Counted from the stretch's first letter, positions 29,541 through 36,299 are shown. The stretch: DNA of 64,000 bases from Propionimicrobium lymphophilum DSM 4903 (GCF_000423485.1 NZ_AUIB01000005.1:1-64000); one strand, 5' to 3'. Notes: generated by a model from the letters alone, not told the origin. Program-made: numbers and translations.

Positions 29541-29981
29541 TTAGTTGTTCTTGCCTTCGTAGGAGCAGATGGCAGCAACCTTCTCGCCGGAGCGCGAGTT
29601 CGGGTCGAACTCGTACTTGAGGTATTCCTCGAGGAACATCTCAGCGGACTTGATGCCGACAACCTGCTCGCCGATGGCGATCATGTTGGCGTTGTTGCTC
29701 AGCACGGCGCGCTGGGCCTGGTAGATGTCGGTGACGCAGGCGCAGTAGGCACCCTTGACCTTGTTCGCGGCGATCGAAACGCCGATGCCGGTACCGCAAA
29801 CGACGATGCCACGGTCGTACTCGCCTGCTGCGACGGCCTCGGCAACGTCAACTGCAACGTTTGCGTAGATCGGGTCGTCGGAGCCGAAGTCCTTGGTCTC
29901 GTGGCCGAGCTCTTCAGCCTTGGCGATCAGGGCCTTCTTGAGGGCCGTTGCGTTCGGGTCGCATCCAAATGCAATCTTCAT
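29541..29981 (-). CDS. RpiB/LacAB family sugar-phosphate isomerase
   Basis: 146 residues, the usual size of this family. The beginning KIAFGCDPNA carries the phosphate-site region, GIVVCGTGIGVSIAANK the active-site Cys region, and SNNANMIAIG the C-terminal signature. Members interconvert ribose-5-phosphate/ribulose-5-phosphate, allose, galactose or tetrose phosphates. As the last gene of the five-gene kinase/dehydrogenase operon it probably acts on that pathway's own intermediate, for example a tetrose or pentose phosphate, rather than on the general pentose pathway. Confidence 0.85.
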   Translation of the reverse strand: MKIAFGCDPNATALKKALIAKAEELGHETKDFGSDDPIYANVAVDVAEAVAAGEYDRGIVVCGTGIGVSIAANKVKGAYCACVTDIYQAQRAVLSNNANMIAIGEQVVGIKSAEMFLEEYLKYEFDPNSRSGEKVAAICSYEGKNN

Positions 29982-29998
29982 AATTCTTACCTAACTGT

Positions 29999-31369
29999 CT
30001 AGTTGTTTTCGGGATGACGGTGTTTGCCCCAGAAGCCTTCTGGGCTGAACAGCTTGTCTACAACCTCTTCGGTCTTATTCAGGTCTACCAAGAGGTCTAG
30101 AATCGTGTACCTGTTGCGGATGTTCTGAGCCTTGAAGTGGGTTTCGCGGAAGCGGTCCCAATCAATCTTGATCATCTCCGGGTGGTACGGTGCACCGGCA
30201 GTCTTGAGCATCTCTTGGATCTCGTCCGGTGTGTAGAGCTGCTTTTTAGCCTTCTCGCGAAGCTCCGGCCAGACTTCCTTGATCTTGGTCAGCCGCTCGC
30301 GCAGTGCGTCGCCCTCGAGGTGCTTGACCAGGGTGTTCTCAACGGCTGCGTCGACAATCCGATCGATGTGCCTCGAGCGGACGCGCTTTTCGACCTCCGC
30401 GGCACTAGGAGTGGCTGCGACGATGGCCTCGATATCGAGGTTATCGACGTCGATCTTGAGGGCCTCTTCCCAAATTGCGCAGGAAGCGACAGTGCCAACA
30501 CCAACCTTCATGCCGTGAGACAGCGGCGGATCCCAGTCGGTGCCGTGACCCTCCATCTCCCACACGTGGCTGAACTGGTGCCCAGCGCCAGATGCCGGAC
30601 GCGACGAGTTCGCGGCCTGCATAGCAAAGCCAGAGATGATGTTGGCCTCGGCCAGCTTCTCGATGGCCTCCGGATCGCGGTTTGTGCAACCGGCAGGGTC
30701 AGACAGCGAATCGCGAAGCGTCGACTGAGCCAGGCTCCACACGTAGTCGTCGATCGGCTCGACGCCAAGCGCATCCGCCAGAATCCAGTCTGCACCTGCC
30801 GGGATCTTCTCGATCAGGTCGCCATAACCGGTTTCGATCAAGCGCATCGGAGAGGCAACCATGGTGTCCAGGTCGGCGACCAGCGCGGCCGGGGCCGGGC
30901 AGCTGTGCGTCGACTTGAAACCATCCTCGGAGATGGACGCACCAAAGGCGGCGAAACCATCCACCGACGGAGCGGTGCAGACGTTCATGTACTCGCGGTT
31001 CAGCTCGCTGCTGGCCAGCTTGGCCAGGTCGTTCAGCGTGCCGGAAGCCAAGGAGCAGCAGACGACATCGTCGCCCATCGGACGCAGGATCTCGCGCAGC
31101 TTCTCCACATTCTCGTAGCCGGCGTAGAGAGTCGGCTTTCCGGGGAAGATGTACGGATCTGCAGCGAACTCGACGCCGGCCTCCTTGAGGGAGGCCACTA
31201 CCTCGTCACCGCAGGCGCCGAAGGTGTTCTCGTCTGCTACGACGATAACCTTCTTGCCGGGGAAGTTCTTCTTGAACAGTTCACCGGTCTTCTTGTTGGC
31301 GCCCTTGCCGAAGGCTATGTCCCGGGTCTGCGTCGCCGTGCTCAGGGCCTTATCAATTAGTTCAGACAT
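29999..31369 (-). CDS. glycerol-1-phosphate dehydrogenase-like (AraM-type) enzyme
   Basis: 456 residues from ATG 31369 (AAGGA six bases upstream). It is an iron-type alcohol dehydrogenase fold close to AraM/EgsA: ASGTLNDLAKLAS for cofactor binding, PSVDGFAAFGA, then metal-site pieces GAGHQFSHVWE and HGMKVG (Asp and two His). Known relatives reduce dihydroxyacetone phosphate to sn-glycerol-1-phosphate. In this operon, behind an FGGY kinase, it more likely oxidises a polyol phosphate. It is longer than B. subtilis AraM by some 60 residues at the C-terminus. Confidence 0.8.
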   Translation of the reverse strand: MSELIDKALSTATQTRDIAFGKGANKKTGELFKKNFPGKKVIVVADENTFGACGDEVVASLKEAGVEFAADPYIFPGKPTLYAGYENVEKLREILRPMGDDVVCCSLASGTLNDLAKLASSELNREYMNVCTAPSVDGFAAFGASISEDGFKSTHSCPAPAALVADLDTMVASPMRLIETGYGDLIEKIPAGADWILADALGVEPIDDYVWSLAQSTLRDSLSDPAGCTNRDPEAIEKLAEANIISGFAMQAANSSRPASGAGHQFSHVWEMEGHGTDWDPPLSHGMKVGVGTVASCAIWEEALKIDVDNLDIEAIVAATPSAAEVEKRVRSRHIDRIVDAAVENTLVKHLEGDALRERLTKIKEVWPELREKAKKQLYTPDEIQEMLKTAGAPYHPEMIKIDWDRFRETHFKAQNIRNRYTILDLLVDLNKTEEVVDKLFSPEGFWGKHRHPENN

Positions 31370-31376
31370 GTTTTCC

Positions 31377-32939
31377 TTACGAAATGTGGTCAACAGTCTT
31401 GTGGGTCAGCTCTGCCATCTGCGGCCAAGCGTTCATGTACTGATCAACGAAGAACTTGTACTGCTCGTGACGTTCCATGTTGGGCTCGATCACGTCGGAC
31501 TCGTGCACCATGTAGCGGGCAGCGTCCGGCAGCGACTCGTAGAGGCCAACGCCGACAGCTGCCAGCATGCAGGAGCCGAGAACCACAGCGTCGCCAACCT
31601 TGGTCAGGGTGACAGGCTTGCCGGTAACGTCGGCGTACATCTGCATCCAAACCTTCGACTTGGTGGCGCCGCCACAGTAAACCAGCTTCTCGGGGTTGAA
31701 GCCGCCGGCCTCCATCACCTTCAGGTTGTGAGCGGTGCCGTAGCAGACACCTTCCATGATGGCGTGGTACATGTGGTCGGCAGTGTGCGACAGCGACAGA
31801 CCCCAGATGACACCGCGTGCCTTAGAGTCGGTGTACGGGGTGCGGTTGCCCTGGAAGTCCTGGTTGACGATCAGGCCGTCGGAACCAGGGGCAATGTTTG
31901 CACAGTTCTTGTCGAGAACCTCGTAGACGTTCATGCCTAGACGCTCGGTGGTGGAAGCAATCTCGCGAGCGAAGTTGTCGCGGAACCACTTCAGCACGGA
32001 GCCGGACGAAACCAGCGAACCCTCAACGGTGTACTGGCCTTCCATGACGGCGTCGGTGTAGCCGCCCATGAAGCCCTTGCCGTAGATCTTGTCTTTACTC
32101 TGGCCGCTCATAACCTGCGAGGAGCCGGTGATAACTGCCAGCGAGCCCGGGTTTACCACGCCAAGGCCAATCTGGCCGTGCCAGGCGTCTCCGCCACCCT
32201 GGACGACGGGGATGCCAGGGGTCAAACCGAGGTCGCTAGCTGCCTTGACGGACAGGCCCTCGACGGGCTGACCCAGCGGCAGAACGTCCTCAGGAAGCTT
32301 TTCGAAGACGTCGCCACAACCAATTTGTTCGAAGAACTCAACCGGCCAACCGCCGAAGTCACGGTTGTAGTAACCACGGACTGCCGCAGTGTTCAGGTTC
32401 ACAGTCCAGCGGCCGGTCAGCTTAAAGGTCAGCCAGTCCGGAGCGTCGACAATGCGGTATGCCTTCTTGTAGATTTCCGGCTCGTTTTCCTTCAGCCAGG
32501 CTGCCTTGAATGGGTACCACTCAGCAGTAACCGGCATGGTGTCACCACCGTTATACAGCTTCGCCCAGCTCTCGGCCTCGTCGCCTCGCTTGGCCTGCTT
32601 AATGGCTCGAACGTCCATCCACATAATGGCGTCGCGAAGGGCGTTCCCCTCCTTGTCGAGAGCAACGACGGTCATCGTGGTTGCGTCGTAGGAGATTCCC
32701 GCGATCTGACGAGCCGGGATACCGGTCTGGTCGAGGACGCGGCTAACGGAGGCCTTCAAGGCCTCCCACCAGTCAGTAGGAGACTGCTCTGCCTGACCAG
32801 GACGAGGGAAGTTCGTCTTGTATGGAGTGCCTGCGAAACCCAGCGGATTACCACGAAGGTCGAAAATCGCAGCGCGGCAAGATTCCGTACCGAAATCAAC
32901 GCCTAGAAGGAAGGGACCTTCGTAACCAGGTAAAGCCAT
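31377..32939 (-). CDS. FGGY family carbohydrate kinase
   Basis: 520 residues, an ordinary length for FGGY kinases. LGVDFGTESCRAAIFD is the N-terminal phosphate loop, WMDVRA and VNPGSLAVITGSS lie in the middle, and the C-terminal ATPase motif is YCGGATKSKVWMQMYADV. It should phosphorylate a sugar or polyol; the exact substrate cannot be read from sequence (erythritol-, ribulose- and xylulose-type kinases all share these motifs). It is seven bases before the dehydrogenase gene and follows the HAD phosphatase gene. Confidence 0.85.
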   Translation of the reverse strand: MALPGYEGPFLLGVDFGTESCRAAIFDLRGNPLGFAGTPYKTNFPRPGQAEQSPTDWWEALKASVSRVLDQTGIPARQIAGISYDATTMTVVALDKEGNALRDAIMWMDVRAIKQAKRGDEAESWAKLYNGGDTMPVTAEWYPFKAAWLKENEPEIYKKAYRIVDAPDWLTFKLTGRWTVNLNTAAVRGYYNRDFGGWPVEFFEQIGCGDVFEKLPEDVLPLGQPVEGLSVKAASDLGLTPGIPVVQGGGDAWHGQIGLGVVNPGSLAVITGSSQVMSGQSKDKIYGKGFMGGYTDAVMEGQYTVEGSLVSSGSVLKWFRDNFAREIASTTERLGMNVYEVLDKNCANIAPGSDGLIVNQDFQGNRTPYTDSKARGVIWGLSLSHTADHMYHAIMEGVCYGTAHNLKVMEAGGFNPEKLVYCGGATKSKVWMQMYADVTGKPVTLTKVGDAVVLGSCMLAAVGVGLYESLPDAARYMVHESDVIEPNMERHEQYKFFVDQYMNAWPQMAELTHKTVDHIS

Positions 32940-32983
32940 GATGCTTCATCCTTTCAAAAATGTTTTGCAAAACCTTGAAGTTT

Positions 32984-33844
32984 TTAGTTGTCCTCGGTCC
33001 AGCCGAGTTCTTCCCAGGCACTCTGGGGGATCAGCCTGTCTACGCGGTCCAGCAGGTAGGTGGGCTGATCTTTTTCGGGTAGGGCAACGGCTTCCTGCCA
33101 TGTGGAGTCACCCGTTAGCGGCATCGCGGACACCATTCCGGCGCGCACGGCCATCTGAATGTCGGTGCCGAGCCTGTCGCCCACCATCACGCAGTGCTTC
33201 AGATCGACGTCAAGACCGACGAGGCACTCGTAGAGCATCTCGGGGTTCGGCTTACCGACGACGATCTGGCACTTGGTCTGTGTACACGCCTCGATAGCAG
33301 CAATGATCGAGGCGCAGTCGGGCTCACCCCGACCGCCCGGGAACGGGCAGTAGCGGTCGGGGTTCGTCGCCACAAGGATGGCCCGCTTGTGGAACCAGAT
33401 TGCGTCGAAAGCGATCTGGAGCTTCCTGTAGTCGAAAGTGCGGTCGTAGGAGGCGACCACGATGTCGATTTCCTCGGGGTTGTCGCTCAACTTGATGCCA
33501 GCATCCTTGAAGGCATTGATGAGTGGCTCCTCCGCGATCGGGAACACGACTGCGTCGGGATGGTGTTCCTTCAGCCAGTTCGTCATAGTGACGACGGTGT
33601 TCGCGATCTCGGATATGTCAGTCGGTAGACCGAGGCGCTCGAGCTTTTCGAGGTACAGCTGCGGGTCCTTTGTTGGGTTGTTAGACAGATACCGGATCGG
33701 TATGTCACGCCTGCGCAACTCCTCAACCATGCGCGTCACTCCGGGGAGGAGGTGGTCACCGAGGTAGATGGTGCCATCCATGTCGAAGATGTAGGCATCG
33801 TAGAACTCGGTAGGGAACTTCAAAGGCGCCTGTTGCTGAGTCAT
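32984..33844 (-). CDS. HAD-IIA (NagD-like) phosphatase
   Basis: 286 residues. Motif I is FDMDGTIYLG, motif II RYLSNNPTKD, motif III KPNPEMLY and motif IV VGDRLGTDIQMA, the NagD/phosphoglycolate phosphatase layout with a C2 cap between. Members remove phosphate from glycolate phosphate, glycerol phosphate or nucleotides. Its place between a membrane protein and a kinase suggests either a pathway step or removal of a toxic phosphorylated intermediate. The ribosome site is TAGGAGAAAA. Confidence 0.85.
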   Translation of the reverse strand: MTQQQAPLKFPTEFYDAYIFDMDGTIYLGDHLLPGVTRMVEELRRRDIPIRYLSNNPTKDPQLYLEKLERLGLPTDISEIANTVVTMTNWLKEHHPDAVVFPIAEEPLINAFKDAGIKLSDNPEEIDIVVASYDRTFDYRKLQIAFDAIWFHKRAILVATNPDRYCPFPGGRGEPDCASIIAAIEACTQTKCQIVVGKPNPEMLYECLVGLDVDLKHCVMVGDRLGTDIQMAVRAGMVSAMPLTGDSTWQEAVALPEKDQPTYLLDRVDRLIPQSAWEELGWTEDN

Positions 33845-33881
33845 TTTTCTCCTAGTGGCGTGTTTCTAACTTTTTATTTTG

Positions 33882-34862
33882 TTATGCGAGAGCCAGAACG
33901 CCCAGGCAGATCAGGGTGTTCATCGGCCAAATTGCGCTTGCCGGGGGGTCAATGTGGGTGTCGCCATTGGCGTAAACCAGACGCTGGGCAACTTCACCCA
34001 GGAACGCGGCAAGCATGCCAGCCACGACGCCGATGACCAGTGCGGCCCAAACGTTGTTACCAACAACCGGCAGGAACTTCACTGCTGCGAGAGCAGCCGT
34101 GATGGTCATGTGGTGAGTAACCGGGAACTTCGAGCCTAGAGGCAGGAAGAAGATGCACAGAGCGGAGATCGCGAACGGCAGAGCCTGAGCGTTAGCCATT
34201 ACGTGGTCAGCGGCCTCACCCGGAACAGCCTGGTAAGCGTAGTGCGTCAAAGCCAGAGCAGCGCCAGCAGCCATCAGACCAGAGAAAGCGCCGAGGGTGA
34301 GGTACTGGCTCGGCTTCTCCTGCCAGCCCAACCAGCACTTCTTGTCGTCGAGCTTGCTAACCCAGTGGAATACAGGCTGCTTGGAGAAGAGCAGACGAGC
34401 AACAATGCCCGAAGTCATAACGGTCAGCGCTACCGAGTCAGTGTGAGTACCGAACCACGGGATGAAGGTAATCGCCTTCTGCAGCAGATAGCCGCAAACG
34501 CCAAACACGGCACCGACGAGAAGAACGTCGGGATGTCCGAGGCCGGCTAGTGGCTGGTTAACATCTCGTCCGTAGCCGGTGTCGGCTGTGAGGAATTTCT
34601 TCTTCGCCGCGTATGCAGATGCAGCGGCACCACCAGCGAATGCGACGTGGGGGCCGAACAGCGGGCCGAAGGCCAGGTAGTCGAAGCCCATGGTCGAGCC
34701 GGTTGCAAAAGTGATACCGAAGGCGAGAAGAATCATCACGCCGGTGAAGCCGAACGCGTTGTTACCGCCGATTGCTGCACCAAAGAAGCCACCAGCGATA
34801 GAGGCGATCAGCCCAAATACCGTGATGTTCTCCACGAATTGGACTACAAGATCTGGAGTCAT
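33882..34862 (-). CDS. polytopic membrane protein, probable transporter of the kinase operon
   Basis: 326 residues from ATG 34862 (AGGTGGAAAA upstream); the GTG at 34928 is a poor alternative. About nine or ten hydrophobic segments are visible, with glycine-rich pieces such as GGFFGAAIGGNNAFG and ATGSTMGFDYLAFGPLFGPH. I do not recognise a transporter family. As first gene of the operon it is the best candidate for uptake of the substrate. An 8-bp inverted repeat lies upstream. Confidence 0.6.
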   Translation of the reverse strand: MTPDLVVQFVENITVFGLIASIAGGFFGAAIGGNNAFGFTGVMILLAFGITFATGSTMGFDYLAFGPLFGPHVAFAGGAAASAYAAKKKFLTADTGYGRDVNQPLAGLGHPDVLLVGAVFGVCGYLLQKAITFIPWFGTHTDSVALTVMTSGIVARLLFSKQPVFHWVSKLDDKKCWLGWQEKPSQYLTLGAFSGLMAAGAALALTHYAYQAVPGEAADHVMANAQALPFAISALCIFFLPLGSKFPVTHHMTITAALAAVKFLPVVGNNVWAALVIGVVAGMLAAFLGEVAQRLVYANGDTHIDPPASAIWPMNTLICLGVLALA

Positions 34863-34920
34863 TTTTCCACCTATTCCGAGGGCAGCCACCAACGTTGGCG
34901 ACCGCGCTTTCAAGAATTTT

Positions 34921-34947
34921 TTGAGCACCTCAGTTTTTAGTGCTCAA
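34921..34947. promoter_or_regulatory. inverted repeat upstream of the kinase operon
   Basis: TTGAGCAC-N11-GTGCTCAA, perfect over 8 bp, 59-85 bases before the first start codon. A regulator site is likely, but a stem in the leader RNA is also possible. Confidence 0.45.
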
Positions 34948-35648
34948 CTACTACATATTTAGTTGTCGCTAGCTGATCGGGGACATCGAGATGTTTTTCG
35001 ACTTCTATGTCTGGTTACTGCCCTTAATAATCCGGGGTTTACGTTTCGCAACCCGAATTCCCAAAGCAAACTTGGTCTTTAACTCTTGATTGTCCGACTC
35101 GGTTTTCAACTAGGTAACAGGTGTTTGCTTCGCGGGCTCAGCCAACTTGCGTCGTCTTTGACCGCTTTACAGAACCTTCCATGGATCCATCAAGCAACAC
35201 ATGCAATGTTAAAATTAACATACCGGTTGATAAAAAGAACAAACATGAGCGATTCCGCGAGCTCTGTTTTCGTAGCCCACACCGAATCCCCTAGCCGGGG
35301 TCAGCGATTAACAAATGTGCACGCGCCGCCAGCAAGTGTTCGATCACGGCAACTTCGTCACCACCAGGCCTTTCGATAAATCGAACCCGTCAACTAATGC
35401 ATGGAAGACTACACCGATTGAACCATTTCCCGCTCTTAGTAGCTCAAGATTTAACTGCTGACAAACCAGTTTTCTCCTGCCCTGCGGACCATCACAACAA
35501 TCTAACCAAGCGAGCGGCTCGCGCTTTTTCTCATTCAGGGAAAATTTTCCCGCACGTTTGACTCAAGCAATAGTTCTACCTCTCCGATTAAAAACAAAAG
35601 CTGTGGATAACTTCTCGAGCAATCGAGTTTCGATGACACGATTGCCTC
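34948..35648. other. 700-base gene-free divergent promoter region
   Basis: No convincing gene. It contains a perfect 14-bp palindrome TGTTAAAATTAACA at 35207-35220. The rest is unremarkable, with a locally AT-rich stretch near 35200-35245. It separates the leftward kinase operon from the rightward glycosylase gene. Frames of 90-97 codons here have no credible start or composition. Confidence 0.5.
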
Positions 35649-36299
35649 GTGAGCGAACAAATTAGACGACCAAACTGGGCAAACACGAACGCGCTGCTCA
35701 GCGACTATTACGACACGGAATGGGGCAATCCCATTTTCGACGAACGTGGCATTTATGAGCGAATTTGTCTGGAGTCTTTCCAGGCAGGCTTGTCTTGGCT
35801 GACCGTCCTAAAGAAGAGACCGGCGTTCAGAAAGCACTTCAATAACTTCAACCCGGAGATCGTCGCCGAATTCGGCGAGCCAGAAATTGCGCAGATGATG
35901 GCGGACCCAGAAATCATTCGCAACCGACCGAAAATCAACGCCGCAATAGCCAACGCGCAGGCAACCTTGGCCTTGCGCAAGAGCCAGCCGCTGCCCTACC
36001 TCGTCTGGTCTTTTCGCCCCGAAGAAACGAAGGCGCCCTCCACCAGCGAAGACGTTCCGACTCAAACGCCTGAATCCGTCGCACTCAGCAAACGATTGAA
36101 GAAGGAGGGATTTAAGTTCGTCGGACCGAGCACGGCATACGCGCTGATGCAGGCCATAGGCATGGTTGACGATCACCCGGCCGATTCGCCCAGGCGCGGA
36201 GCATCGGGCGTGTTCGATGAAAATGGCCGGGCGGTCGACGTCACAGAGAAGATCCGAATGGCCAATCCGGGCCTGCCCGAGGCCGCTTTATATAGGTAA
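35649..36299 (+). CDS. tag: DNA-3-methyladenine glycosylase I
   Basis: 216 residues from GTG 35649. Removes 3-methyladenine from DNA in base-excision repair. YDTEWGNPIFDERGIYERICLES with the catalytic Glu, then AGLSWLTVLKKR and FKFVGPSTAYALMQAIGMVDDH follow the E. coli Tag pattern. Of the four zinc ligands in E. coli Tag (Cys4, His17, His175, Cys179) only the third seems kept here: RPNW, YYDTEWG and DDHPADS replace RCGW, YHDNEWG and NDHVVGC. A ~20-residue C-terminal extension follows. Confidence 0.85.
   Translation: MSEQIRRPNWANTNALLSDYYDTEWGNPIFDERGIYERICLESFQAGLSWLTVLKKRPAFRKHFNNFNPEIVAEFGEPEIAQMMADPEIIRNRPKINAAIANAQATLALRKSQPLPYLVWSFRPEETKAPSTSEDVPTQTPESVALSKRLKKEGFKFVGPSTAYALMQAIGMVDDHPADSPRRGASGVFDENGRAVDVTEKIRMANPGLPEAALYR

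Follow-up and report, generated by a model that had tools for sequence, protein, structure and literature searches.

A candidate sugar-alcohol operon with AraL- and AraM-like enzymes in Propionimicrobium lymphophilum DSM 4903

Introduction

Erythritol and adonitol (ribitol) are fermented by all 21 Propionibacterium freudenreichii strains of a published study, in which neither pathway was reconstructed and a conserved "araB, araB, araM, araL" locus was assigned to L-arabinose (PMC4437456). Strain DSM 20271 of this species uses glycerol, adonitol, and erythritol (PMC4619572). One erythritol-adonitol-L-arabitol locus can serve both a tetritol and pentitols (PMC3599248), and an isomerase route through LerI/DerI to erythrose 4-phosphate is known (PMC10733421). 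L-Erythrulose 1-phosphate of Propionibacterium pentosaceum, a synonym of Acidipropionibacterium acidipropionici, is the subject named in the title of a 1968 paper by Wawszkiewicz, which both PMC4437456 and PMC10733421 cite; PMC10733421 remarks that an aldol cleavage was suggested in that organism. Here we describe a five-gene operon of Propionimicrobium lymphophilum DSM 4903, found in a stretch of 64,000 nucleotides (NZ_AUIB01000005.1:1-64000; "the window" below means this whole stretch). It encodes a membrane protein (MEM), a HAD phosphatase, an FGGY kinase, a glycerol-1-phosphate dehydrogenase (G1PDH)-like enzyme, and an RpiB-family isomerase. Judging from its genes and their neighbourhoods, we propose, with about an even chance of being right, that it serves the breakdown of a small sugar alcohol, that erythritol and/or ribitol are the likeliest substrates, and that phosphorylation would be the first step.

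The operon and its conservation

The five intact genes lie on the minus strand between 29541 and 34862, as follows.

33882..34862, minus strand: MEM, multi-pass membrane protein, 326 amino acids (aa); predicted polyol (glycerol/tetritol/pentitol) facilitator
32984..33844, minus strand: HAD-IIA phosphatase, AraL/NagD-like, 286 aa (Pfam Hydrolase_6/Hydrolase_like); proposed ketose-1-phosphate phosphatase
31377..32939, minus strand: FGGY kinase, 520 aa (FGGY_N/FGGY_C); proposed polyol kinase
29999..31369, minus strand: G1PDH-like (AraM-like) enzyme, 456 aa (Fe-ADH_2); proposed polyol-phosphate dehydrogenase
29541..29981, minus strand: RpiB-family sugar-phosphate isomerase, 146 aa (PF02502, 141.8 bits)

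They are transcribed in the order MEM, HAD, FGGY, G1PDH-like, and RpiB, with successive gaps of 37, 44, 7, and 17 bp and a plausible ribosome site before every start. The MEM start is the ATG at 34862, which has an AGGTGG ribosome site and agrees with the aligned relatives, the GTG at 34928 being an in-frame alternative; the G1PDH-like enzyme starts at an ATG and not at the TTG at 31393. The original prediction, made from the sequence alone, had named five co-directional, closely spaced genes of these families, and they were found as described, with gaps of 7-44 bp and intact catalytic motifs. The genome measures 2.04 Mb (completeness 100) and belongs to the Propionibacteriaceae, together with Cutibacterium, Acidipropionibacterium, and P. 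freudenreichii.

Scanning named genomes with an alignment of MEM yielded at least 562 relatives, and the neighbourhood counts given here refer to the best 80 of these. The HAD gene was present in 53 loci, the FGGY gene in 45, the G1PDH-like gene in 43, RpiB in 39, and a second FGGY gene in 34, while the adjacent pairs MEM-HAD (49), HAD-FGGY (43), and FGGY-G1PDH (35) showed that gene order is kept far beyond chance. The operon recurs in Propionibacteriaceae and Actinomycetaceae, usually in the order DeoR, RpiB, MEM, HAD, FGGY, G1PDH, second FGGY, and AraD and/or transketolase; a GpsA-like dehydrogenase is often among the extensions of the cluster, with DeoR, AraB, AraD, and transketolase. A representative second FGGY protein scored above the ribulokinase cut-off, and a 233-aa gene above that of the PRK06557 L-ribulose-5-phosphate 4-epimerase subfamily. 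P. freudenreichii DSM 20271 carries DeoR-RpiB-MEM-HAD-FGGY-G1PDH-AraB-Tkt, and we take the araB-araB-araM-araL locus mentioned above (PMC4437456) to be the same operon, as position and gene content agree. Acidipropionibacterium genomes also carry it. In 29 G1PDH loci drawn from the whole phylum (L147-L175), the HAD gene was found in 16 and an FGGY gene in 18 within the short stretches fetched. On Rubrobacter plasmids the kinase stands in an island with transketolase, an aldolase, a dihydroxyacetone-kinase-family protein, HAD-IIA, G1PDH, RpiB, and glycerol-phosphate-dehydrogenase-like genes, and the R. radiotolerans copy includes MEM. A literature search for an operon combining an FGGY kinase with a G1PDH found none.

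The HAD, FGGY, RpiB, and MEM proteins are 72-84% identical to those of Mobiluncus (L047), compared with 35-72% to the propionibacterial copies, and the kinase in particular shares 84% with Mobiluncus and 80% with Winkia. The nearby ilvD shows the opposite trend, with 78% for P. freudenreichii and 68% for Winkia. Because the operon and ilvD point to different relatives, it is likely that the operon was transferred horizontally between the Actinomycetaceae and the lineage of the window.

AraA, AraB, and AraD in the genome

Away from the operon, at C1:294.5-298 kb, the genome has AraB (58%), AraD (71%), and a GpsA-like gene side by side. The L-arabinose isomerase AraA had no PF02610 match in this genome, while controls matched, nor was there a match in 31 of the 38 genome entries searched (four of the 38 refer to one and the same genome, which makes the distinct genomes slightly fewer). 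With AraB and AraD present and AraA absent, L-ribulose, if it is the substrate of AraB, would come from a source other than L-arabinose. A separate glpK and glpABC cluster is also present.

The four enzymes

By profile score the FGGY kinase is nearest to pentulose kinases (XylB 269 bits, ribulokinase 268) and further from glycerol kinase (158 bits, cut-off 590), and it lies under every curated cut-off. Its relatives on Shinella, Skermanella, and Priestia plasmids stand in mixed gene contexts, with no pointer to one substrate.

The G1PDH-like enzyme reached 169 bits with NF002022, whose cut-off is 413, and thus represents a divergent subfamily that we do not class as a true G1PDH (EC 1.1.1.261); such a score is as expected for a relative that may act on another substrate. 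Its top PDB matches are nevertheless G1PDHs (9h4x, E 9e-34), and the putative metal ligands D184, H264, and H285 are kept, as is the SSRPASG motif, which we take to be phosphate-binding in G1P dehydrogenases. The three ligands, together with R257 and S260 of the motif, are invariant in an alignment that takes in the 9h4x segment.

The motifs of the HAD protein are intact (DMDGT, GDRLGTD), and its gene adjoins that of MEM or of the G1PDH-like enzyme in most loci. It had been predicted to act as an extra step or a safety valve. Because HAD and G1PDH are paired repeatedly among Actinobacteria and again in AraL-AraM of Bacillus subtilis, and because the extended pathway reaches AraB and AraD, the enzyme probably catalyses a step of the pathway and is not just a safety valve.

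RpiB scored above the cut-off of the RpiB subfamily (146 vs. 135) and below those of RPI_actino (131 vs. 168) and DerI (126 vs. 240). It is encoded at the 3' end of the operon, as in Mobiluncus, while other copies have a different RpiB at the 5' end. The genome encodes a second RpiB at C1:464059.

Two further loci hold relatives of these enzymes. A second G1PDH-like paralogue (C5:63376-64731; L176 9347-10813; about 529 bits to the window enzyme) stands alone, without HAD, MEM, or RpiB; an FGGY gene upstream is convergent with it. In the other locus (L187 6808-11048, C1 at about 27-31.5 kb), a further FGGY kinase, of the same broad subfamily as that of the operon (457 bits), is preceded by genes that, judged by eye, encode a zinc alcohol dehydrogenase, a sugar-binding regulator, and a DeoC-like aldolase; together these genes are possibly a separate deoxy-sugar operon.

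The membrane protein

MEM had no match among Pfam, NCBIfam, or PDB sequences. Mobiluncus mulieris and Winkia neuii have its closest relatives (72%); other Actinomycetaceae and Propionibacteriaceae follow, and more remote relatives come from Microbacterium, Vibrio, Photobacterium, Aliagarivorans, and Alkalibacterium; plasmid records extend the family to Rhodococcus, Rubrobacter, and haloarchaea. A survey of the neighbourhoods of this family showed that many relatives adjoin glycerol kinase or other polyol genes: GlpK/GlpD-like neighbours were found in Microbacterium and marine gamma-proteobacteria, and some propionibacterial copies adjoin glpABC. A new family of glycerol transporters was predicted in 2011, encoded beside glycerol kinases in haloarchaea and, in bacteria, near glycerol/propanediol genes (rrnAC0550; PMC3102087). 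MEM likewise has haloarchaeal homologues (Haladaptatus, Natribaculum), of which the Natribaculum copy adjoins GlpK-like and GlpA-like genes, and bacterial relatives beside glycerol or diol genes, while MEM of the window differs in being linked to a non-glycerol kinase. Matched by description and gene context, the two families appear to be the same. The membrane protein had originally been placed in no known family; it is indeed without a named one, but it apparently belongs to this predicted family, with many relatives near glycerol or polyol genes.

The AlphaFold2 (AF2) model of MEM was of high quality (pLDDT 95.6, pTM 0.92). In VIA-align its top 15 structural neighbours were urea transporters (UT/SLC14; Z 7.6-8.5) and the next five Amt/Rh channels (Z 5.8-6.6), although the tool itself warns that a Z of about 8 is borderline, and the resemblance is distant, with a root mean square deviation of 4-5 Å and about 9% identity. 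Foldseek against the PDB returned nothing at E ≤ 0.001, and a profile comparison with UT, whose side consisted of three sequences only, gave no match. A candidate internal repeat (residues 114-143 vs. 275-302) is weak, with an hhalign probability of 17%. Since urea transporters and then Amt/Rh channels head the list of folds, the model suggests that MEM may be a channel-like facilitator.

MEM homologues also occur in gene clusters of other kinds. On a Rhodococcus qingshengii plasmid (L010 9118-16867) the homologue stands with an NDMA-dependent alcohol dehydrogenase, an aldehyde dehydrogenase, an AMP-binding protein, and an acryloyl-CoA reductase, which suggests diol or 3-hydroxypropionate catabolism. 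A Microbacterium-type cluster (L080 6225-13637; also L079, L083, L085, and L102) holds a GlpK-like kinase, a RuBisCO-like protein (MtnW/OiaX-like), a Cof-type HAD, a triosephosphate isomerase (TIM)-like protein, and a GlpD-like dehydrogenase, and is an uncharacterised polyol cluster. In Vibrio, Photobacterium, and Aliagarivorans (L121 4977-12148, L107, L109, and L120), MEM is flanked by a GlcD-like oxidase on one side and by GlpK- and GlpD/GlpO-like genes on the other; GlcF-like and YhfZ-like genes also belong to this unexplained cluster for glycerol-like oxidation.

Proposed pathway and alternatives

In the route that we favour, MEM would admit the polyol and the FGGY kinase would phosphorylate one end of it, giving D-erythritol 4-phosphate, which is the product of erythritol kinase (EC 2.7.1.27), or D-ribitol 5-phosphate. 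G1P dehydrogenases oxidise the D-carbinol adjacent to CH2-O-phosphate, and the G1PDH-like enzyme would convert these products to L-erythrulose 1-phosphate and L-ribulose 1-phosphate, respectively. In the ribitol branch, HAD would then release L-ribulose, and the AraB and AraD enzymes encoded away from the operon would convert this to D-xylulose 5-phosphate; in the erythritol branch, isomerisation by RpiB and a further step, or an aldol cleavage, would lead to central metabolism. The products would enter the pentose-phosphate pathway either via the phosphatase and AraB or via isomerases. The gene content, its conserved linkage, the absence of AraA, the presence of AraB and AraD, and the predicted fold of MEM are findings of this analysis, whereas we infer the substrate, the order of steps, and the transport role. 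Among possible substrates erythritol and ribitol stand out: P. freudenreichii DSM 20271 ferments both and has the operon, the published search found genes for neither, and the expected product, L-erythrulose 1-phosphate, is named in the title of the 1968 work on P. pentosaceum. Conserved neighbourhoods and phenotype data back the original idea of a sugar-alcohol operon for uptake, phosphorylation, oxidation, and isomerisation, and that interpretation as a whole is partly supported.

Several points weigh against our proposal. The link to phenotype is a correlation in one species, and this species also has AraA, so that its AraB and AraD are not diagnostic. Winkia carries the operon, yet no AraD above threshold was found there. 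The operon itself encodes no TIM-like L-erythrulose-1-phosphate isomerase, its RpiB is not orthologous to that of most other copies (35-48% identity), and its kinase resembles pentulose (ketose) kinases in score more than glycerol kinase.

The most serious competitor has oxidation first: the G1PDH-like enzyme would act on the free polyol, the FGGY kinase on the resulting tetrulose or pentulose, and RpiB on the ketose phosphate, with HAD as a safety valve. The kinase does score best against xylulokinase, ribulokinase, and pentulose-kinase models, kinase and RpiB would suffice in the window operon without a second kinase, and dehydrogenase-first tetritol routes via D-erythrulose-4-phosphate isomerase are known (PMC10733421). 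The dehydrogenase, however, retains the SSRPASG motif and the PDB affinities of G1P dehydrogenases, and neither the HAD-G1PDH pairing nor the AraB of many copies would be accounted for; we consider this order unlikely. Glycerol or diol metabolism, in which MEM would import glycerol and the enzymes would handle sn-glycerol 1-phosphate or recycle dihydroxyacetone phosphate to glycerol (G1PDH in reverse, plus HAD), agrees with the glycerol kinase and GlpD/GlpABC-like neighbours of MEM relatives, including the glpABC beside some propionibacterial copies, and with the predicted glycerol transporters (PMC3102087). We set this substrate aside as quite improbable because a separate glp cluster is present in the genome and because AraB, AraD, RpiB, and transketolase would have no role in a glycerol route; the FGGY enzyme, moreover, is distant from glycerol kinase. 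An accessory L-arabinose/arabinan operon in which AraL and AraM would be non-essential side activities, as the AraL- and AraM-like enzymes, the accompanying AraB and AraD of many genomes, and the published assignment in P. freudenreichii (PMC4437456) might suggest, is very improbable, as AraA is absent from this and most genomes searched, the conserved clusters showed no arabinosidase where they were annotated, and MEM, RpiB, and the FGGY kinase are foreign to the ara operon.

Extending our phosphorylation-first proposal, the operon could represent the missing propionibacterial erythritol/ribitol pathway as a sequence of phosphorylation, oxidation, dephosphorylation, and rephosphorylation with an AraL/AraM-type pair, and would then account for the Bacillus AraL and AraM as well and add a new family of polyol channels with a urea-transporter-like fold; as a whole we regard this as tentative and rather doubtful. 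The operon nonetheless offers candidate genes for a trait that the 21-strain study left without genes and for the 1960s biochemistry of P. pentosaceum (a kinase and L-erythrulose 1-phosphate), so that an open gene question becomes directly testable and the AraL/AraM pair gains a testable role. It also draws attention to a putative transporter family without a name, whose members occur in Actinobacteria, gamma-proteobacteria, Firmicutes, and haloarchaea. Several of the hosts live in association with humans (Cutibacterium, Mobiluncus, Winkia), and erythritol is widely used as a sweetener.

The upstream region

One further feature lies upstream.

34929..35648, no strand: intergenic region with repeats; putative regulatory role only

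Both repeats predicted here were confirmed in the sequence: an 8-bp inverted repeat (arms 34921-34928 and 34940-34947), whose first arm overlaps the alternative GTG start, and a 14-bp palindrome (35538-35551) about 100 bp from the divergent gene that starts at 35649. Among 225 fetched loci they occurred only in copies of the window itself and are thus not conserved. No sigma-70-like promoter was seen in the region, scanning for promoters and terminators gave no more than chance would, and an Rfam search gave no match; as regulatory sites the repeats are no more than candidates.

Comparison with known systems

The ery and erythritol-adonitol-L-arabitol loci of Brucella and rhizobia resemble the present operon in an FGGY-type kinase, a polyol-phosphate dehydrogenase, RpiB, and a small polyol substrate. 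They differ in having a GlpD-like EryB where an AraM/G1PDH-like dehydrogenase is found here, and in having EryC, TpiB, and an ABC transporter, in place of which an AraL-like phosphatase and MEM are present. With no EryC- or TIM-like gene and a dehydrogenase of the Fe-ADH_2 type, the window operon departs from the Brucella eryABC/tpiB/rpiB pattern, and the pairing of the kinase with a G1PDH-type enzyme is as unusual beside these erythritol genes as originally supposed. The araABDLMNPQ-abfA operon of B. subtilis shares the NagD/AraL-type HAD and the AraM-type dehydrogenase, as well as AraB and AraD in the extended copies, whereas AraA and arabinan enzymes are missing here and an FGGY kinase, RpiB, and MEM are added. 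To our knowledge, no gene has been assigned to the erythritol kinase (EC 2.7.1.27) and L-erythrulose 1-phosphate chemistry of P. pentosaceum; it is this chemistry that would be expected of the FGGY and G1PDH-like pair.

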